Below, in pieces: positions 3,553 through 52,672 of a DNA stretch of 61,193 nt; position 1 is the stretch's first letter; each line of letters begins with the position of its first letter. The DNA lies in contig NZ_PVNB01000024.1 of the NCBI RefSeq assembly GCF_003001995.1, forward strand, positions 1 through 61,193, read 5' to 3'. The DNA comes from Orenia metallireducens. Lineage in GTDB: Bacteria > Bacillota > Halanaerobiia > Halobacteroidales > Halobacteroidaceae. Under the pieces are notes generated by a model. That model had not been told where the DNA came from and did not search any database. It worked only from the letters and a program-made list of their open reading frames with translations. A program made the translations under genes and the position numbers.

Positions 3553-4488
3553 ATGAGAAGATTTTCAATTTTGTTATTAAGTGCTTTATTAATTTTTGCA
3601 TTCACTACAGTTTCTATGGCAAACCCAACTATCAAGGGAGATTTTCGTTATAACATTTACAAGGATGAAACTAAAGATGATGAAAACTATGCTCAATCTG
3701 ATTTAAGAGTTAGTATAGAAGATGACTTAAGTGATTCACTTCATGTTTTTGCTAAATTTAGAGTAAAAAATGAGACTGATAAAGATAATGGCGAGATGTA
3801 TGCAGATGAGTATTATGTAAAATATAAAGAGTCTTGGGGTTCTATAAAGGCTGGTCACTATGGATATAAATTCACTCCAAGTCGTGTTTTATTGAAATCT
3901 GCAGAATATCATGAATTTCCAAGTGTTGATATTATGGCTGCTACTACTTTTAATACTTCAGTAGATGGTTTGACTTTTGATGTATTGTACCAACCTTATG
4001 CTGATGATGAGGAAGAAGAGATTGGTGCTGGTGCGTATGGTTTGACTGCTGACTATAATGCTGGTAACTGGGGAGCTAAGATCAGTTATGCTGATTTAGC
4101 AAAACCTGCTGCAGGCAGTAGTAGCTCTAGTGATGCAGATCTTTTAGCTTTGGATGTTTATTATAAGCTTGATAATGGGATGAAGTTCTTTGTTAATGCT
4201 GTTGATTATAGTGCTAATGATAAGAAATATTCTCGTTATGGTAGTAAGGGTATTGATGGTATTGACCCTGTGTTAGGTTTTCAGTGGAAGAAGGTTGCTG
4301 GTTCCAAATTTGATGTTAGTGCAGAATATGCTATTAATCCTCGTTTTGAAGATACTGATGCTGAGTATAATGGTCTTGCTCTTGGTGCTAAATACCAAAT
4401 CACTAAAAATACTAAGCTAGAATTTGAACATTATGTTAAGAGTGATGATGAGACTAAAACTATGGGACGAATCAGATATAAGTTCTAA
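3553..4488 (+). CDS. Outer-membrane beta-barrel porin
   Basis: A 311-aa protein with a clean signal peptide (residues 1-23, cleavage after SMA). It then has alternating short amphipathic strands rich in Tyr, Gly and Asp, for example KAGHYGYKFTPSR and LEFEHYVKS. It ends in RIRYKF; a terminal Phe is the usual Bam-complex signal of Gram-negative porins. GGGGG lies 8 nt before the ATG. The gene sits between its own regulated leader and a pectate lyase, so a role in uptake of pectin oligomers across the outer membrane is likely (inference, KdgM-like in role rather than in sequence). A strong terminator follows. Confidence 0.8.
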   Translation: MRRFSILLLSALLIFAFTTVSMANPTIKGDFRYNIYKDETKDDENYAQSDLRVSIEDDLSDSLHVFAKFRVKNETDKDNGEMYADEYYVKYKESWGSIKAGHYGYKFTPSRVLLKSAEYHEFPSVDIMAATTFNTSVDGLTFDVLYQPYADDEEEEIGAGAYGLTADYNAGNWGAKISYADLAKPAAGSSSSSDADLLALDVYYKLDNGMKFFVNAVDYSANDKKYSRYGSKGIDGIDPVLGFQWKKVAGSKFDVSAEYAINPRFEDTDAEYNGLALGAKYQITKNTKLEFEHYVKSDDETKTMGRIRYKF

Positions 4489-4630: not shown

Positions 4631-7600
4631 GTGCTGACTTTGGAAAGAGTACCAACTATTTGTCTGTTAGTTTTATCTCTATTATTGGTTTCAATAATAG
4701 TTTGTGCTGAGGATCAGATGATTAGTATTTCAAGTGATTGGCAAGGAAGTATCTTTGGTAATGTAGGTGGTCAAGATAAGATAACTACTCAAAACTTTGA
4801 AATCACTGAAAATAGTGATCGGACTGTTAAACTAAGAAGTTCTAATAATAAAGGTAAGATTGAGAGTAAATCAGAAGGAATAGCTTATTATTTTAAAGAG
4901 GTTCCTGCTGATGCTAACTTTGAATTTAGTGCAACAGCTACAGTAGAATCCTTTACTATGAATAATCAGGTATCCTTTGGTCTAATGCTTCGTGATAAGG
5001 TACTTTATAATCAGAGTAATAAAGAAGATATAGGATATACTTTGGCGTCAGGAATTTTAAATGCTAAAAAGGATATCCCTAAGGTAGGATTTTATAGGAC
5101 TGCCAAAGGGCAAAGCAAAGTAGGGGAATTAGTAAATGATGCTATCCCTAGCTCTGGTAGTGTTTATAATATAAGTATTAAGAAATCAGGAAATACCTAT
5201 GTACTAAAGTTTGGTAATGAAGAGCCTGTGATAATCAATGATTTTGATGGGTTTGAAAGTGGAAAATTATTTGCAGGTCTCTATACTGCCAGAAATACAA
5301 CGGTTACCTTTAGTAATATAAGCTTAAGCATTGAAGGTGAATTTAGTGATTGGCAAAAAAGTATCTTTGGCAATGTCGGTGGACAGGACAAAATAACTGA
5401 AGAGAACTTTGAGATTAGAGAGAAGAGTGATGGAAGTGTTAAGCTAAGAAGTTCTAATAATAAAGGTAAGATTGAGAGTAAATCAGAAGGAATAGCTTAT
5501 TATTTCAAGGAAACTAATGCCAATACTAACTTTGAAATTACAGCTAAAGCTAAGGTAGAGTCCTTTACTATAAATAATCAGGTATCCTTTGGTCTAATGG
5601 TTAGAGATAAGGTACTTTATAATCAGAGTAATAAACATGATATAGGATATGCTCTGGCTGCTGGAATTCTTAATGCTAAAAAAGATGTTCCCAAGACAGG
5701 GTTTTATAGAACTGCAAAGGGGCAGACCAAGATAGGAGAATTAGTAAATGAAGCTGTGCCTAGTGCAGGTGCTGTCTATGATTTGAGTATTAAGAAATCT
5801 GGTAATACTTATGTATTGAAGTTTGGTAATGAAGACCCTGTAGTAGTTGCTAATTTTGACGGTTTTGTAGGTAGTACCCGTTATGTTGGTCTTTATACTG
5901 CTAGAAATACAGCAGTTACCTTTAGTGATATTAAGATCAATGTAGATACTAGAAAGGTAACAGATCTCAAGGTAGATACAGCTGCAATGAAGACTGATTA
6001 TCTTTTAGAGCAAAAGTTAGACTTAACAGGATTGAAAGTAACAGCAGAATTCTCTGATGGTGCTCAAAAGGTACTTTCACAGGATGATTATATTGTAGCA
6101 GGTTTTGATAGTAGTGTAGTAGGTACTAACACAATTACAATAAATTACAATGGAGTAACTACAACTACTGACTTAAAGATAAATCCTTTAACCTGTACAG
6201 CTTTGAAGATAAAGTATTATCCAGCTAAAACCGATTATTATAAGGGAGATAGCTTTGATCCTGAAGGTTTTGCTGTGATAGCTGAATATAATAATGGCTA
6301 TAAAGTTGAAGAGCTTAGAAGTGATCAATATACCTTCTTCATTGAAGGGAAATCGGTTACCGGAAAAGAATATCTATTTAACAGCTCAGGGGAGAAGTTA
6401 GTAACTGTTAGATCAACTGAAACTCCTAGTACAGCAACTAGTTTTAAAGTAAATGTCAATAGTGCTGAAATTGCTGGATTAGAAATTAGTAAAGCACCTA
6501 AGAAGAGTTTATATTTTCTTGGTGATAAATTAGATCTTAGTGGTATGACTGTATATGCAAGATATAGTGATGACACTAAAGTAAGGCTTAGTAAAGATGA
6601 ATATTCGCTAACTCCTTTAGATACTAGAACTGCTGGGCAAAAAGAGGTTATTATTTCATATAAAGGAGAAACAGCAGAATTAAATTTAACTGTAAAGAGA
6701 AGAGAGTTAAGGGGTATTGAAGTTACAGATTATCCTAAGACTACCTTCTATCTTGGTGAGGATTTTACAAGTAGAGGCTTAGAAGTTTCTAAGGTCTATG
6801 ATAATCTTGATAGAGAAGTATTGGCTAGTTATAATTACAAAGTTAATGTATCAAACTTTGATAATAGCAAGGTTGGAGTCTATCAGATTAAGATTATTCC
6901 TGATAATAACTCAATTGCACCTATTACTTATCCAGTAACTGTAAGAAAGCAGAAGAAATATGAGTGGAAATACACCAGGTTTGGCCAATCTACAGATCAA
7001 GAAAATGATTTTGCTAATGTAAAAGCAGATGGCACAATCGAGGTTGCTTCTATCAATGGTCGTGGTAAGGTTGCAACAGACCATGATGGTATCAGTTTCT
7101 ATTACACAGTAATTGATGCTAAAAAGGATAATTTCGTATTGTCTGCTGATATTAAAGTGATTGAATATGCTAAAACTCCACATGATGGTCAAGAAGGCTT
7201 TGGTATTATGGCAAGAGATGCCATAGGGGAATTTGATGATACTGGAGTATTTGCTTCTAACATTGTTGGTGTAGGTGGATTTAGTGGAGGGACTAAAGAT
7301 CCTAATGGAACACAGCTCTTTATGAGAACTGGTGTTGAATCTCCAGATGGAGCAGGAAGTAATGGTCTCTCAAGTATGATGATTAAAGAAGAAAGACCTA
7401 CAACAAGTAATACCTATCCTTCTAAGAAATATAGATTGACTCTAGCCAAGACAAATAGTGGTTATGTAGGAAGACTTAATGATGGTAAAGAGGTAACATT
7501 ATTTAAACCTCAGTTATTGAATGTTCAAAATTCAAAGATTTATCTAGGCTTCTTCGCTGCTCGTGTTGGACATATTGAAGTAAGCAATGTAGATTTTAGA

Positions 7601-19470: not shown

Positions 19471-19941
19471 TTATTTAGCAAAGATATGCTTGCCTATTTT
19501 ACGAACTGTTCTTCTAGAGTAAATCCATCTAGAAGAAGATGTAGCTGGATTGTAGAAGTAGAGACAGCCATATGTAGGGTCCCAACCTCTGATGGCTGAA
19601 AGGGTTGCTCTAATTGAATCTTCAGTTGGTCTTTGGCTCCAGACAAGTCCATGAGCTACAGGGGTAAAGGCCCAAGGCTGATAAATTACACCTGCAATGG
19701 TATTAGGAAACTTATGGCTTCTGACACGATTCATCATTACCGCTGCTACTGCAACCTTGGCAAGATAAGGCTCACCTTTAGCTTCAGCATGGACGGTGTT
19801 AACCATTAATCTTGTAGTAGGGGATAGACTCCAAAACCATGATGGTGTTTTAGCTTCTGCTAACTTTGCATTATAGTATCCATAGAAGATAGAAACTCCA
19901 ATAAGTAATACTGCTATCAGAATTATAGTTTTTTTCTTCAT
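19471..19941 (-). CDS. SleB/CwlJ-type cell-wall hydrolase
   Basis: 156 aa with one N-terminal membrane segment (about 5-24) and then a Hydrolase_2 domain. Catalytic Glu lies in HAEAKGE (about residues 50-56), followed by VAAVMMNR and GCLYFYNP blocks. This domain is the lytic transglycosylase of spore cortex-lytic enzymes. It lacks the peptidoglycan-binding domain of its neighbour at 21.1 kb. AGGAGG lies upstream of the start on the minus strand. The role is probably germination or remodelling of peptidoglycan. Confidence 0.85.
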   Translation of the reverse strand: MKKKTIILIAVLLIGVSIFYGYYNAKLAEAKTPSWFWSLSPTTRLMVNTVHAEAKGEPYLAKVAVAAVMMNRVRSHKFPNTIAGVIYQPWAFTPVAHGLVWSQRPTEDSIRATLSAIRGWDPTYGCLYFYNPATSSSRWIYSRRTVRKIGKHIFAK

Positions 19942-20875: not shown

Positions 20876-21115
20876 AGAATAAGAAAAATCAGCTAGATGT
20901 GTTGAGCTAGTAAGAGAGGCACTATATTTATAAATAGTAAGTTGCTAACAGGATATGAGTAAGCAAGGGCTAAAAAGAGTCTTTAATCTTTAAATAGAGT
21001 TATACTTGGAGGGGGTATAATATTTCTGTGATTAATTTTACAATAAATACCTTTGAATGATAAGGACTATATCTGTATAATTAGATTCGTTGATAAAACT
21101 TTGGAGGTGAAAAAT

Positions 21116-21802
21116 ATGAAAAATAAATTTACAATTACTTTTGTGATGATACTAGCTTTGATGATTTTTATGACCTCAGTTGGGGAAGCAGCTGCTTTAG
21201 GCAATAGAATGTTATACTTCGGTACTCGAGGAAGGGATGTTAAAGCTTTACAGAACATGTTAGCAAGTAAAGGATATTTCCATGTTGAGCCTACTGGGTA
21301 TTATGGTCCTATCACCGAAAGAGCTATAATCGAATTTCAAAAGAACTATAATCTAAGAATTGATGGTTTTGCAGGCTATGAAACTATTAGAAAATTAAAG
21401 GGCAATTACAATTTAAATATTAGTAATTCAAATTACCGATTGAATGTAACTGCTGAAGAGATGGATCTATTATTAAGAACAGTTTACTCTGAAGCTAGAG
21501 GAGAGAGCTTTGAAGGACAAGTGGCTGTTGCTTCCGTTGTAATCAATAGGGTGTTAGATGATCGTTTCCCAGATACAATTAAGGGAGTTGTTTTTCAGCC
21601 GTGGGCATTTACAGCTGTCCATGATGGACAGTTCTGGTTAGATCCAGATCCAAGTATGCGTAAAGCTGTAGAAGCAGCCTTAAAAGGATGGGATCCAACT
21701 GGAGGAGCTGTATTTTACTATAATCCAGCTAAAGTAACCTCATATTGGATTTATACACGTCCAATAATCACTAGAATTGGACGTCATTTCTTTGCAGCAT
21801 AA
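21116..21802 (+). CDS. sleB: Spore cortex-lytic enzyme SleB-like
   Basis: 228 aa from the ATG at 21116, preceded by TGGAGGTG at 9 nt; the longer frame from 21053 has no ribosome site and would bury the signal peptide. A signal peptide (residues 1-26) is followed by a peptidoglycan-binding repeat (GTRGRDVKALQNMLASKGYF to IRKLKG) and a Hydrolase_2 domain with YSEARGES (catalytic Glu), VVINRVLDDRFP and YYNPAKVTSYW. This is the domain order of SleB, which breaks muramic-lactam cortex during germination. No ypeB follows. Confidence 0.85.
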   Translation: MKNKFTITFVMILALMIFMTSVGEAAALGNRMLYFGTRGRDVKALQNMLASKGYFHVEPTGYYGPITERAIIEFQKNYNLRIDGFAGYETIRKLKGNYNLNISNSNYRLNVTAEEMDLLLRTVYSEARGESFEGQVAVASVVINRVLDDRFPDTIKGVVFQPWAFTAVHDGQFWLDPDPSMRKAVEAALKGWDPTGGAVFYYNPAKVTSYWIYTRPIITRIGRHFFAA

Positions 21803-23683: not shown

Positions 23684-23793
23684 ATTCCTGATAATTATAT
23701 AGTCAATATATGTTATAGTATGCTATCCGTTTATTTATAGCTAAATATCGAAGTGTCTCTTGTGAAAAATGAACAAATTACTATAATTGGTTA

Positions 23794-23849
23794 TTGACAT
23801 ATGATTATAAGTGGGTTATAATAATCATAAACTAAATTATGAACATATG
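23794..23849 (+). promoter_or_regulatory. Consensus promoter with paired CATATG half-sites (operon 1)
   Basis: TTGACA (23794-23799), a 17-nt spacer and TATAAT (23817-23822). CATATGATTATAA overlaps the -35 box and TTATGAACATATG lies downstream of the -10 (CATATG at 23844-23849). The same arrangement occurs at 30758-30806. Confidence 0.75.
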
Positions 23850-23875
23850 CTAATAATGAAAAAGGGGGCACAGAG

Positions 23876-24249: not shown

Positions 24250-25092
24250 ATGAAGATTACAGTTTTAAGTGGCAAAGGTGGTACAGGTAAGACTACTGTA
24301 GCAACTAATTTAGCTTTGTCTTTAACTAATGTTCAATTTTTGGATGCAGATGTAGAAGAACCTAATTCATATATCTTTATTAGACCTGACTTTGGAGAAG
24401 AATACCAACAAGTATTGAGAAAGGTTCCAATAATTGATCAAAATAAATGTAGGGCTTGTCGAAGCTGTGTTGATTTCTGTGAGTATAATGCTCTAGTGCT
24501 ATTAGGAGAAGAAGTACTTATCATTAAAGAGATGTGCCATAGCTGTGGAGGATGTAAGTATATTTGTCCTAAAGAGGCAATTAGAGAAGAGGATAAAGAA
24601 GTAGGTAAGATTAGAGTTGATAAATCAGTTGCAGGAATGGAGTTTTGGCAGGGAGAGCTAAATATTGGTGAAGCTTCAGCAGTACCTGTGATTGAAGCTT
24701 TAAATCAAAAGGTTTCTGAAGATAAAACTGTAATTATCGATGCTCCACCGGGAACCACCTGCCCGACAATAGCAGCAATTTCTGATGCTAACTATTGTAT
24801 TTTAGTAACAGAACCAACACCTTTTGGTCTACATGATCTAAAGATGGCAGTAGAAGTTGTTAAAGAATTGGGTAAACCTTGTGGAATTATAATCAACCGT
24901 TCAGAAGAAGATGCTGATAAATTGATTGAAGATTATGCTAGTAATGAAGGTATTAGTATCTTAACTAAGATTCCTTTTAAAAGAGAGATTGCTAGCTTAT
25001 ACTCACAAGGGACTCCCTTTGTAGAAGAGATGCCTGAATGGAAAGAGAATTTTCAAGAGGTCTTTACCAAAATAAAGCAGGTGGTTGGATGA
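24250..25092 (+). CDS. MinD-superfamily P-loop ATPase with inserted ferredoxin domain (1)
   Basis: 280 aa. The deviant Walker A GKGGTGKTT lies at about residues 8-16. A 2x[4Fe-4S] ferredoxin insert follows (CRACRSCVDFC and CHSCGGCKYIC, about 64-106), then IIDAPPGTTCP (Walker B / switch). This is the COG1149 architecture found next to MTH1175-type proteins in the orp cluster of Desulfovibrio and many anaerobes. It probably loads or moves a metal-sulfur cluster in an ATP- and redox-dependent way. The stop overlaps the next start by ATGA, so translation is coupled. Confidence 0.85.
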   Translation: MKITVLSGKGGTGKTTVATNLALSLTNVQFLDADVEEPNSYIFIRPDFGEEYQQVLRKVPIIDQNKCRACRSCVDFCEYNALVLLGEEVLIIKEMCHSCGGCKYICPKEAIREEDKEVGKIRVDKSVAGMEFWQGELNIGEASAVPVIEALNQKVSEDKTVIIDAPPGTTCPTIAAISDANYCILVTEPTPFGLHDLKMAVEVVKELGKPCGIIINRSEEDADKLIEDYASNEGISILTKIPFKREIASLYSQGTPFVEEMPEWKENFQEVFTKIKQVVG

Positions 25093-25961
25093 AGAAATTA
25101 ACAGTTATCAGTGGTAAAGGTGGTACAGGTAAGACTACAGTAACTGCCAACTTAGCAGCTTTGGCAGATAATTTAATTTTAGCAGATTGTGATGTAGATG
25201 CTCCTAATATGCATCTATTAATGAAGCCTGAGGTAATTGAAGCGGAAGTCTTCAAAGGAGCAAAAGTAGCTGTCAAAGATCAGCTTAAATGTATTGAGTG
25301 TGGTCTATGTAGAGAACTCTGTAACTTTAAAGCCATTACTTCTGATTTTAAAGTAGATGAGATCCGTTGTGAGGGCTGTGGACTATGTGTAGCCAAATGT
25401 CCTAGTGATGCACTAAAGTTAGAGTTAGAAGAGACAGGAGATCTTTACTATTCTCAGACCAAATTTGCTCCAATGGTACATGCTAAGCTAAAGATAGGAG
25501 CTGAAAACTCTGGTAAGCTAGTCAGTCAAGTCAAAGAGAAAGCAGAAAGCTTAGCCCAACAACAAGAGAAGGAGTTGCTTTTAATAGATGGTTCCCCAGG
25601 AATAGGCTGTCCTGTAATTGCTTCTATTAATGGAGTTGATAGTGTGTTAGTTGTAACAGAGCCCACTAAATCAGGATTAGCAGATTTAAAACGAGTTCTA
25701 AAGACAGTTAAGTATTTTAATCTGCCTGCTGTAGTAGCTATTAATAAGTATGATTTAAATCAAGAGATTAGCTTAGAGATAGAGAGTTTCTGTCGGCAAA
25801 TTCAAGTTAAGATAGTGGGTAAGCTTCCTTTTAGCAAAGTAATTGTAGAAGCGATGCAACAAGGGGAGTTGGTAGTAGAATCTGCTCCTGAGAGCAAAGT
25901 TGCTGCTGCTCTTAAAGAACTCTGGCAAGAGCTAAGCTATGAGTTAAGAATTAAGAGTTAA
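25089..25961 (+). CDS. MinD-superfamily P-loop ATPase with inserted ferredoxin domain (2)
   Basis: 290 aa from the ATG at 25089, which overlaps the preceding stop (ATGA); the frame open from 25038 would lie within the upstream gene. It has GKGGTGKTT, then a ferredoxin insert with CIECGLCRELC and CEGCGLCVAKC, and LIDGSPGIGCP. It is a paralogue of the upstream ATPase and the two may act as a heterodimer. The last codons (LRIKS and stop) are formed by the left arm of a 17-bp hairpin made of TTAAGA words. Confidence 0.85.
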   Translation: MKKLTVISGKGGTGKTTVTANLAALADNLILADCDVDAPNMHLLMKPEVIEAEVFKGAKVAVKDQLKCIECGLCRELCNFKAITSDFKVDEIRCEGCGLCVAKCPSDALKLELEETGDLYYSQTKFAPMVHAKLKIGAENSGKLVSQVKEKAESLAQQQEKELLLIDGSPGIGCPVIASINGVDSVLVVTEPTKSGLADLKRVLKTVKYFNLPAVVAINKYDLNQEISLEIESFCRQIQVKIVGKLPFSKVIVEAMQQGELVVESAPESKVAAALKELWQELSYELRIKS

Positions 25962-26506: not shown

Positions 26507-27313
26507 ATGGAAAAGATGTATAGTGTGGAAGATGGTTGGTTTAAATTAGAGCATGGACTTGTTAATGAAGGATTGATTGCTATAGCTAGTGGTAAGGGTG
26601 GAGTTGGTAAATCAACTGTAACAGTCAATCTAGCTTTAGCTTTACATAAATTAGGTAGAAGGGTAGGAATTATTGATGCTGATATTCATGGCTTTAGTAT
26701 TCCTAGAATCATCGGTTTAACTGATAAGCCTAGAGCATTTAATGAGAAAGAGATTATCCCACCAGAGGTTAATGGGGTTAAGGTCATGTCGGCTGGTTCT
26801 ATGATTGCTGAAAATAAGGCTATTATCTGGCGAGCGCCGATGCTGTTGGGAGTATTGGAACAGTTTATGAAGGATGTTCACTGGGGAGAGTTAGATTATC
26901 TTCTATTTGATCTTCCTCCAGGAACTGGTGATATGCCCTTAAATATCATGCAGCAGATCTCAGATGCAGGAATCCTAATTGTAACAACTCCCCAAGTAGC
27001 TGCTACTAAGGTAGCCAGTCGAGTAGGAAGTATGGCTAAACAGCTTGATTCTGATATTTTAGGTATTATCGAGAATATGTCTTATTATCAATGTGATAAG
27101 TGTGGAGATAAAGAGTATATCTTTGGTCAAGGTGGCGGTCAAAAGATGGCTAAAGAGTTAGATAGCAAATTGTTAACTCAATTACCCTTAATGGCTACTA
27201 TTCGTCAAGGCAGTGACCAAGGTAAGCCAGTTGTAATAGCTGAACCTGAAGCTGAAGCAACTCAGAAGTTTATTGCTGTAGCTGAAAAGTTGATTGCTCA
27301 GAGAGCAAGATAG
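26507..27313 (+). CDS. Mrp/NBP35-type iron-sulfur cluster carrier ATPase
   Basis: 268 aa: GKGGVGKSTVTVNLA (about 24-38), FDLPPGTGD (Walker B region) and the cluster-binding CDKC (about 197-200, in YYQCDKCGDKE). Mrp/ApbC proteins bind a bridging [4Fe-4S] cluster and pass it to targets. In Desulfovibrio an Mrp ATPase (Mrp-ORP) is part of the orp system, so the whole 23.9-27.3 kb set matches that system in content. GGGAGG lies 9 nt before the ATG. Confidence 0.88.
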   Translation: MEKMYSVEDGWFKLEHGLVNEGLIAIASGKGGVGKSTVTVNLALALHKLGRRVGIIDADIHGFSIPRIIGLTDKPRAFNEKEIIPPEVNGVKVMSAGSMIAENKAIIWRAPMLLGVLEQFMKDVHWGELDYLLFDLPPGTGDMPLNIMQQISDAGILIVTTPQVAATKVASRVGSMAKQLDSDILGIIENMSYYQCDKCGDKEYIFGQGGGQKMAKELDSKLLTQLPLMATIRQGSDQGKPVVIAEPEAEATQKFIAVAEKLIAQRAR

Positions 27314-29559: not shown

Positions 29560-30739
29560 ATGAAAAACAATAAAGCTAGGAAATTTAATAGAAGTAATTA
29601 TAATTGCTATAACTCATTTATTACACGATCTATTTGGAGCTTTTTTATCACCAGTATTACCCTTATTGATAGAACGTTTTGCTTTGAGTTATTTTCAAGT
29701 TAGTTTACTAAATATCATAAGGGATCTACCTTCTTTATTCAGTTTAGCGATTGGAACATTTATTAGTAGAATTGATAGAAGATATTTAAATTATTTGATT
29801 ATAGTAGCTCCTATAACGATGATTATTTTAATGAGTTTAATAGGTACTATTCCATCATATATGATATTATTGGTCTTACTATTTATTACTGGAATTACTT
29901 CAGCAGCCTTTCATATTTCTACTCCTCCTATAATCAAAGAACTTAGTAGAGATAGAATTGGTACAGGGATCAGTCTTTATCAATTAGGAGGAGAGGCTGC
30001 TCGTTCTTTAGGACCTCTAGTAATTCTAGGTAGTATTTCGATTTGGGGATTAGAGGGAGGTTATAGATTAATTCCTGTAGGATTAATCTGTTCCTTGCTT
30101 CTTTATAGCAAGATTAAAGATATCAAGATAGATAATATATTTAATAGACAAGAGGATAAAGAGCATAAGCTACTATTATTCTCACTATTAAAAGAACAGT
30201 CAAACTTTATTTTAAAGATTGGTGCTATCAGATTTTTCTGGAGTTTAATTAAAATATCTTTAACTTTATTTTTACCAACTTATTTAACTGTTACTAAGGG
30301 TGCATCTTTATGGCTAGCAGGTGGAGCATTAACAATTGTACAATTTTCTGGGGCAATAGATACCTATCTAGGTGGTTCAATCTCTGATAGCATTGGGCGT
30401 GAGAAGATGATCTTGATATCTGTAATCTGTACTTCAATTACTATGTTAGGACTTACTTTATCATCTGGAGTTTATCTTTTGATATTACTTATTATTTTAG
30501 GATTTTTCATTTATTCAATCAACCCTGTAATACTTACATTAGTTCAAGAAGCAGATTCGAAACCAACAGTAATTATTAATGGATTTTATAAAACAATTAG
30601 CTTTATAAGTACAGCTTTAGCTACTTTAATTATTGGTCAAGGAGCTGATTTATATGGATTAACCACAGTTTATAGAACTGTTCCATTATTATTATTGTTA
30701 TCTATCCCTTTAATTTTGAATTTAGCGGATACAAATTAG
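29560..30739 (+). pseudogene. MFS transporter, frameshifted at codon 2-3 in an A-run
   Basis: A 12-helix MFS protein of the fosmidomycin-resistance-like group. AAGGAG lies 9 nt upstream of an ATG at 29560, but the reading frame after it stops within about 35 codons. The conserved first helix (VIIIAITHLLHDLFGAFLSP) is found one frame away, open from 29564. Removing one A from the AAAAA at 29563-29567 would give MKTIKLGNLIEVI... in one frame to 30739 (about 392 aa). No other lesion is seen. It may be a sequencing error, a fresh mutation or phase variation; a TTG at 29666 would lose helix 1. Confidence 0.65.
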
Positions 30740-30757
30740 AAATTATCAAACAAGTTA

Positions 30758-30806
30758 TTGACATATGATCATAATAGAGTTATAATACAATTATAATGAG
30801 CATATG
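30758..30806 (+). promoter_or_regulatory. Consensus promoter with paired CATATG half-sites (operon 2)
   Basis: TTGACA (30758-30763), a 17-nt spacer and TATAAT (30781-30786). CATATGATCATAA overlaps the -35 and TTATAATGAGCATATG lies downstream (CATATG at 30801-30806). It has the same layout as 23794-23849. Confidence 0.75.
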
Positions 30807-30834
30807 TTCAAAAACAAAGAAGGAGTTGGTTTAA

Positions 30835-52433: not shown

Positions 52434-52488
52434 CTTAATAGAGTTAAGGAAAGGCATAAAAGAACGACATACAAAAACTTAATATAAA

Positions 52489-52666
52489 TGTCCTGCGGTG
52501 TGCGAGATCGGATTAATATTTTGCCCAACACTATATTATAAGGGAGCCTGGACTTCATCTGGGGCGTACAAGCCTCCAACTAGAGAGGAAGTACAAAGCA
52601 GATGGGAGGGCACCCACTTTGAAGCCAAGAGCAAAATACAAAATCTAGTACGGCACTGCGGGACAA
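52489..52666 (+). ncRNA. ssrS: 6S RNA
   Basis: The ends TGTCCTGCGGTGT (52489-52501) and CACTGCGGGACA (about 52654-52665) pair over 13 bp with a few G-U pairs. Between them lie TTGCCCAACACTAT, GGAGCCTGGAC, GGGGCGTAC and AAGCCTCCAACTAGAGAGG, matching the conserved arms and bubble of firmicute 6S RNA. The length (~178 nt) fits. 6S RNA binds sigma-A RNA polymerase in stationary phase. A terminator follows at once. A 77-codon frame through it is not credible. Alternative: another structured RNA, less likely. Confidence 0.8.
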
Positions 52667-52672
52667 TTTTTT

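Follow-up and report, generated by a model that had tools for sequence, protein, structure and literature searches.

The stretch of DNA analysed here, 61,193 nucleotides of Orenia metallireducens (hereafter the window), carries two operons on its forward strand that share one type of control region. The first starts with a NifX/MTH1175-type protein (PF02579; 23876..24241), followed by a MinD/Mrp-type ATPase with an inserted 2x[4Fe-4S] ferredoxin domain (24250..25092), a second MinD/Mrp-type ATPase with a ferredoxin domain (25083..25961), a second NifX/MTH1175-type protein (PF02579; 26014..26382), which resembles the C-terminal domain of MrpORP, and an Mrp/NBP35 Fe-S carrier ATPase (26507..27313). 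The second operon encodes a Gly-rich DUF5320 protein (PF17253; 30835..31164) and a DUF134/UPF0251 protein (PF02001; 31296..31691) with a helix-turn-helix (HTH) and a C-terminal CxxC...CxxC module, the proposed repressor of this study. An MFS transporter gene (29666-30739, + strand) ends 15 bp 5' of the first operator of the second operon, so that the control region of this operon consists almost entirely of operator and promoter. Elsewhere in the window, the only Rfam match is a 6S RNA gene (52487-52668, + strand; 100.8 bits), and two neighbouring genes on opposite strands (19471-19941, -; 21053-21802, +) encode paralogous proteins with a similar C-terminal region that by eye looks like a SleB-type hydrolase.

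The gene content of the first operon is comparable to that of the orp operons of Desulfovibrio vulgaris (DVU2103-2109, MrpORP; PMC6345978, PMC3897727), with which it has in common the paired ferredoxin-containing MinD/Mrp-type P-loop ATPases, the NifX/MTH1175-type proteins and Mrp. However, separate genes encode Mrp and the NifX domain in this case, and the MrpORP profile NF041136 (cut-off 450) is matched in two separate proteins with 283.9 and 115 bits. The control differs as well, as the D. vulgaris operons depend on sigma54, the enhancer-binding protein DVU2106 and IHF (PMC3897727), whereas here consensus TTGACA-17-TATAAT promoters of the sigma70 type occur together with overlapping operators and DUF134. 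The PF02579 domain of the target proteins is also that of IssA, which binds thioferrate (PMC5524996); in the literature compared on the IssA/MTH1175/NifX family, no regulator of PF02579-family operons is described.

The original prediction had placed a perfect promoter before the NifX-type gene and another before the DUF5320 gene, and direct reading shows both, at 23794..23822 (+; TTGACA 23794-23799, TATAAT 23817-23822) and at 30758..30786 (+; TTGACA 30758-30763, TATAAT 30781-30786). It had also described CATATG-type elements overlapping the -35 and inverted copies after the -10, and these are found where they were said to be: the 13-bp elements over the -35 read CATATGATTATAA (23798-23810) and CATATGATCATAA (30762-30774), with the shared form CATATGAT(T/C)ATAA, and the inverted copies 3' of the -10 lie at 23837-23849 and, with one mismatch, at 30794-30806. 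The elements had been taken for half-sites, but each of them belongs to a complete 20-bp dyad, TTATnnnCATATGnnnATAA, as CATATG is palindromic by itself and the symmetry extends into the flanks. Two such dyads flank each of the two promoters. Before the NifX/ATPase/Mrp operon, the exact 20-bp palindrome TTATTGACATATGATTATAA (operator 1a, 23791..23810, unstranded like the other operators, read directly) overlaps the -35, and TTATGAACATATGCTAATAA (operator 1b, 23837..23856), also exact, lies just 3' of the -10. Before DUF5320-DUF134, TTATTGACATATGATCATAA (operator 2a, 30755..30774) is exact and overlaps the -35, and TAATGAGCATATGTTCAAAA (operator 2b, 30794..30813) matches 12 of the 14 fixed positions. 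The slight asymmetry of the dyads that overlap the -35 arises because one arm is the TTGACA hexamer itself. The distance between the CATATG centres, and hence between the dyad centres, is 46 bp for 1a and 1b and 39 bp for 2a and 2b, as claimed.

The 13-bp half-motif, at up to two mismatches, occurs 29 times in the window against 29.2 expected, which is not significant, and its other exact copies in the genome (CATATGnTYATAA; C2, C5, C9 and C28) are without the palindrome and were left out of the count; the full dyad is therefore the informative unit. The exact palindrome is found three times in the 4,104,971-bp genome (95 contigs), in each case in these two gaps, and the four copies with one mismatch elsewhere have no supporting context. 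A third composite promoter in the window, TTGACATATG-13-TATAAT at 2869-2897, was not counted, as the second operator arm is missing and a long leader separates it from the surface-protein-like ORF at 3553. As no further exact operator exists in the genome, the regulon here appears to consist of the two operons, whose promoters are about 7 kb apart, which supports the small regulon for metal-cluster genes originally proposed. That the similarity of the two gaps reflects only the shared promoter consensus and coincidence, as the chance-level counts of the half-motif at two mismatches might suggest, is practically negligible as an explanation, given that all three exact palindromes of a 4.1-Mb genome lie here and that conservation at orthologous positions refutes it.

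This conservation is evident within the order, where the exact palindrome occurs in 8 of 13 genomes with 19 copies (reversed control: 0), and nearly all eight have copies ahead of the NifX operon and of the DUF5320 gene; the motif search suggested beforehand thus found the motif neither absent from orthologous promoters nor frequent elsewhere. All eight genomes of the order with DUF134 have the palindrome, versus none of the five without (exact probability 1/1287). DUF5320 and above-cut-off NifX-type proteins are, within the order, confined to the same eight genomes, and because DUF134 and its targets co-occur all-or-none, co-occurrence at this level cannot separate the regulator from its targets. 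Among 299 sampled genomes of the phylum, 193 of which have DUF134 above the cut-off, the composite TTGACATATG-(12-14)-TATAAT is found in 87 of 193 genomes with DUF134 versus 9 of 106 without (Fisher p ~1e-11, uncorrected for phylogeny, though the matches span many families), and its reversed control in 4 of 299. Most of the nine exceptions lack the second operator arm. Two draft genomes with sites and no DUF134 (G020, G041) are not counter-examples, because their contigs end where relatives carry DUF134, at the ATPase or Mrp gene that adjoins it there.

Outside the order, 86 nonredundant DUF134 neighbourhoods contain 17 CATATG palindromes (at most one outer mismatch), versus a mean of 0.33 and a maximum of 3 in local dinucleotide shuffles of the same neighbourhoods, and none of the other palindromic hexamers that have one G/C in each half occurs more than once. 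A recognised CATATG site within 8 kb is present at 32 of 92 nonredundant DUF134 loci. About two thirds are thus without one, so that specificities may have diverged within the family or its targets may lie far away; in one large DUF134 lineage (family f3), neither a CATATG site nor, by eye, an alternative palindrome was found upstream of DUF134. In two loci (L098:7744-7974, L099:7712-7888), truncated or stop-broken DUF5320 copies have kept a perfect operator and promoter. A perfect palindrome without a TTGACA arm, TTATAACCATATGGTTATAA (L091:4990-5009), lies 5' of an ORF for a small CxxC protein (5226-5444), and may be due to chance or mark a further member of the regulon.

In distant lineages the operator is found beside DUF134 itself. 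In Chlorobaculum, Bacteroidetes, Riflebacteria, Methylomirabilis and Desulfobacteraceae, it directly precedes DUF134 as the first gene, reading TTATTGGCATATGCTAATAA in the Chlorobaculum genomes of 58% G+C, TTGGCATTTGCTAA paired with TTGGCAAATGCCAA around the promoter in Riflebacteria and TTATGGGTATATGCCCATAA in Desulfobacteraceae. The gene behind the operator in locus L103 is a DUF134-NifX fusion according to Pfam, and a second fusion exists in L246. The operators of Patescibacteria and DPANN archaea retain the arms around a TATATA core (TTATGGGTATATACTCATAA, TTATGAATATATATTCATAA/TTA) and directly precede a DUF5320-like gene followed by DUF134, at about one per genome. A degenerate motif, whose variants were partly defined from examples already seen, with shuffles scored by the identical pattern, gave 13 sites in 24 whole Patescibacteria/DPANN genomes and none in the reversed control; 12 of the 13 fetched loci hold DUF134, DUF5320 or NifX genes, and the remaining one is within a coding region of a Lokiarchaeia genome. 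At one of the 12, in an Aenigmatarchaeota genome, an exact CATATG operator, with a TATA-like stretch rich in A+T immediately 5', precedes a DUF5320-like/NifX operon, in trans from DUF134. This position before DUF134 across distant phyla is the strongest pointer to DUF134 as the regulator.

The DUF134 protein of the window matches its Pfam family with 98.8 bits (cut-off 27), HTH included, and its AlphaFold model has a mean pLDDT of 89.6. The fold matches are to a short and common HTH. The top Foldseek match is the DNA-binding domain of DeoR in complex with its operator (rmsd 0.7 and 40% identity over 40 columns, though at an E of only 0.04), a profile search matches the same domain (E 1.6e-6, 38 residues), and VIA-align returns sigma region 4 and similar HTHs with Z up to 7, a value that small helical domains often reach. 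DUF134 is thus predicted to carry an HTH of the sigma-region-4/DeoR type. It is not a sigma-70 factor, as region 2 and the full-length architecture are missing and region-4 matches are sub-threshold, nor a complete SorC/DeoR protein, as it has the DeoR-type N-terminal HTH, though with 127 amino acids from the likely ATG it lacks the C-terminal sugar-phosphate effector domain and scores 24.1 bits with the NCBIfam DeoR equivalog (cut-off 420).

DeoR of Bacillus subtilis (SorC family) nevertheless offers the nearest solved HTH (7bhy/8r7y), and both proteins have an SRPTxxR recognition segment. R34 and R39 of DeoR are reported to contact bases (PMC11229326), and the two arginines of the DUF134 segment would correspond to them in the numbering mapped here. 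The DeoR half-operator, ATTGAACAAAATTTCAAT (PMC11229326), superposes on operator 1b with TGAACA at equal distance from the dyad, and its TTGAA-N6-TTCAA has the same dyad spacing as the operators of the DUF134 type; moreover, DeoR is a repressor whose operator lies over a sigma-A promoter (PMC11229326), a layout like the present one. Unlike DeoR, DUF134 proteins (92-200 aa) have a CxxC module or a fused NifX domain in place of the sugar-binding effector domain, their targets are metal-cluster genes, and their sites have CATATG or TATATA cores. The C-terminus of DUF134 contains CPSC...CPKC and a His-rich loop, which many homologues have, though not all of them. In open-access full text, no relevant description was found of DUF134/UPF0251, COG1342, MTH1175 or DUF5320 as regulators; a UPF0251 gene was mutated in an adapted rex strain of T. 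saccharolyticum (PMC5886521).

I propose, with a probability of roughly 0.8, that DUF134 is a repressor which binds as a dimer, as a rule controls its own gene, and acts through these palindromes on metal-cluster genes of the NifX/MTH1175 type. The original prediction had hinted at the DUF134 protein as the binder, and this is supported by the linkage across genomes, the autoregulatory sites and the DeoR-like HTH. A dimer of DUF134, in its apo or holo form, would recognise each of the 20-bp dyads through the DeoR/sigma-4-like HTH, and the bound dimers, one over the -35 and the other past the -10, would keep out sigma region 4 of the sigma-A RNA polymerase and prevent the open complex, so that the NifX-ATPase-ATPase-NifX-Mrp operon would be repressed and DUF5320-DUF134 autoregulated. 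Release would follow when the C-terminal Cys/His module, or in some lineages the fused NifX-type domain, senses a signal, probably a metal, an Fe-S species or a related cluster. A consensus promoter embedded in an operator, and a further operator about the start site, are features expected of a repressor; over the sites collected, 55 of 95 contain the -35 hexamer in one arm, and nearly all of these are followed by a -10 (5-6 of 6 positions) at 16-18 bp. The operator of Patescibacteria lies over the -10, and that of archaea between the TATA box and the start. The idea that one protein contacts both sites astride the polymerase is not supported, as the dyads are complete, the spacing of paired sites varies from 22 to 77 bp (34 being the commonest) with no helical phase, which makes strict phasing or a single bridging protein unlikely, and many promoters show a single recognisable site. 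Two dimers, each bound on its own and each obstructing the promoter, fit the data better.

The similarity of the HTH to sigma region 4, together with an operator that overlaps the -35, would also suit a DUF134 that binds the palindromes and, through contact with RNA polymerase, activates transcription, either solely or in addition to repressing it. I consider this unlikely, as promoters of full consensus need no activator, and the positions are occluding ones, with the second operator past the -10 near the start and the sites of Patescibacteria and archaea on the -10 and between TATA box and start, respectively. Still less probable is that the palindromes serve some unlinked regulator and DUF134 acts elsewhere, for instance as an RNA-binding or scaffold protein; even though many DUF134 loci have no site nearby, the sites lie directly before DUF134 in distant phyla and number about one per Patescibacteria/DPANN genome, at the DUF134/DUF5320 operon, and the DeoR-like HTH comes with a matching operator register.

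The palindrome could instead be bound by a Fur-family metalloregulator, with DUF134 merely a target. In relatives, the NifX operon often begins with a Fur-family gene, right behind the operator (L092:15565-16011, L094:5327-5668, L097:271-738, L100:10761-11222, L195:5368-5799), the TTAT...ATAA arms resemble Fur/PerR boxes, and the metal-linked genes and the palindromic operator over the promoter are likewise reminiscent of this type of regulation. However, the linked Fur orthologue (47-100% identity to the query in G002, G003, G005, G009 and G011) is missing from the genome of the window (G000) and from G001 and G007, all of which bear the operator and whose best Fur matches are general paralogues of about 40% that also occur in motif-less genomes. 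A Fur-like ORF is present in only 6 of 37 stretches with DUF134 and a site, and the DUF134 operons behind a site in Chlorobi, Patescibacteria and DPANN archaea have no Fur gene linked to them. The Fur box is a 7-1-7 arrangement, unlike the even-centred 20-bp dyad with its CATATG core. Regulation by Fur is thus very improbable, a little less so than an unlinked regulator, and the Fur-family genes behind operators of the DUF134 type suggest a regulatory cascade. Further genes behind such operators elsewhere encode a pyridine-nucleotide oxidoreductase and ARMT1-like (DUF89) metal-dependent phosphatases, the latter behind a perfect or near-perfect operator in two genomes (L187:1348-2229, L191:4475-5329).

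With DUF134 taken as the repressor, the widespread and so far uncharacterised family gains a concrete operator, a regulon and a testable mechanism. This also gives access to what NifX/MTH1175, DUF5320 and MrpORP-type proteins do, as the inducing signal should name their physiological cargo. It is conceivable, though I hold it for somewhat less than an even chance, that DUF134 and the 20-bp operator form one circuit across Bacteria, Patescibacteria and DPANN Archaea, which works on sigma-A and archaeal TATA promoters alike, senses a metal or Fe-S cluster via the Cys module or a fused NifX-type domain, and controls its own cluster-carrier genes. It would be unusual for an operator to stay recognisably similar next to its regulator in Bacteria as well as Archaea.
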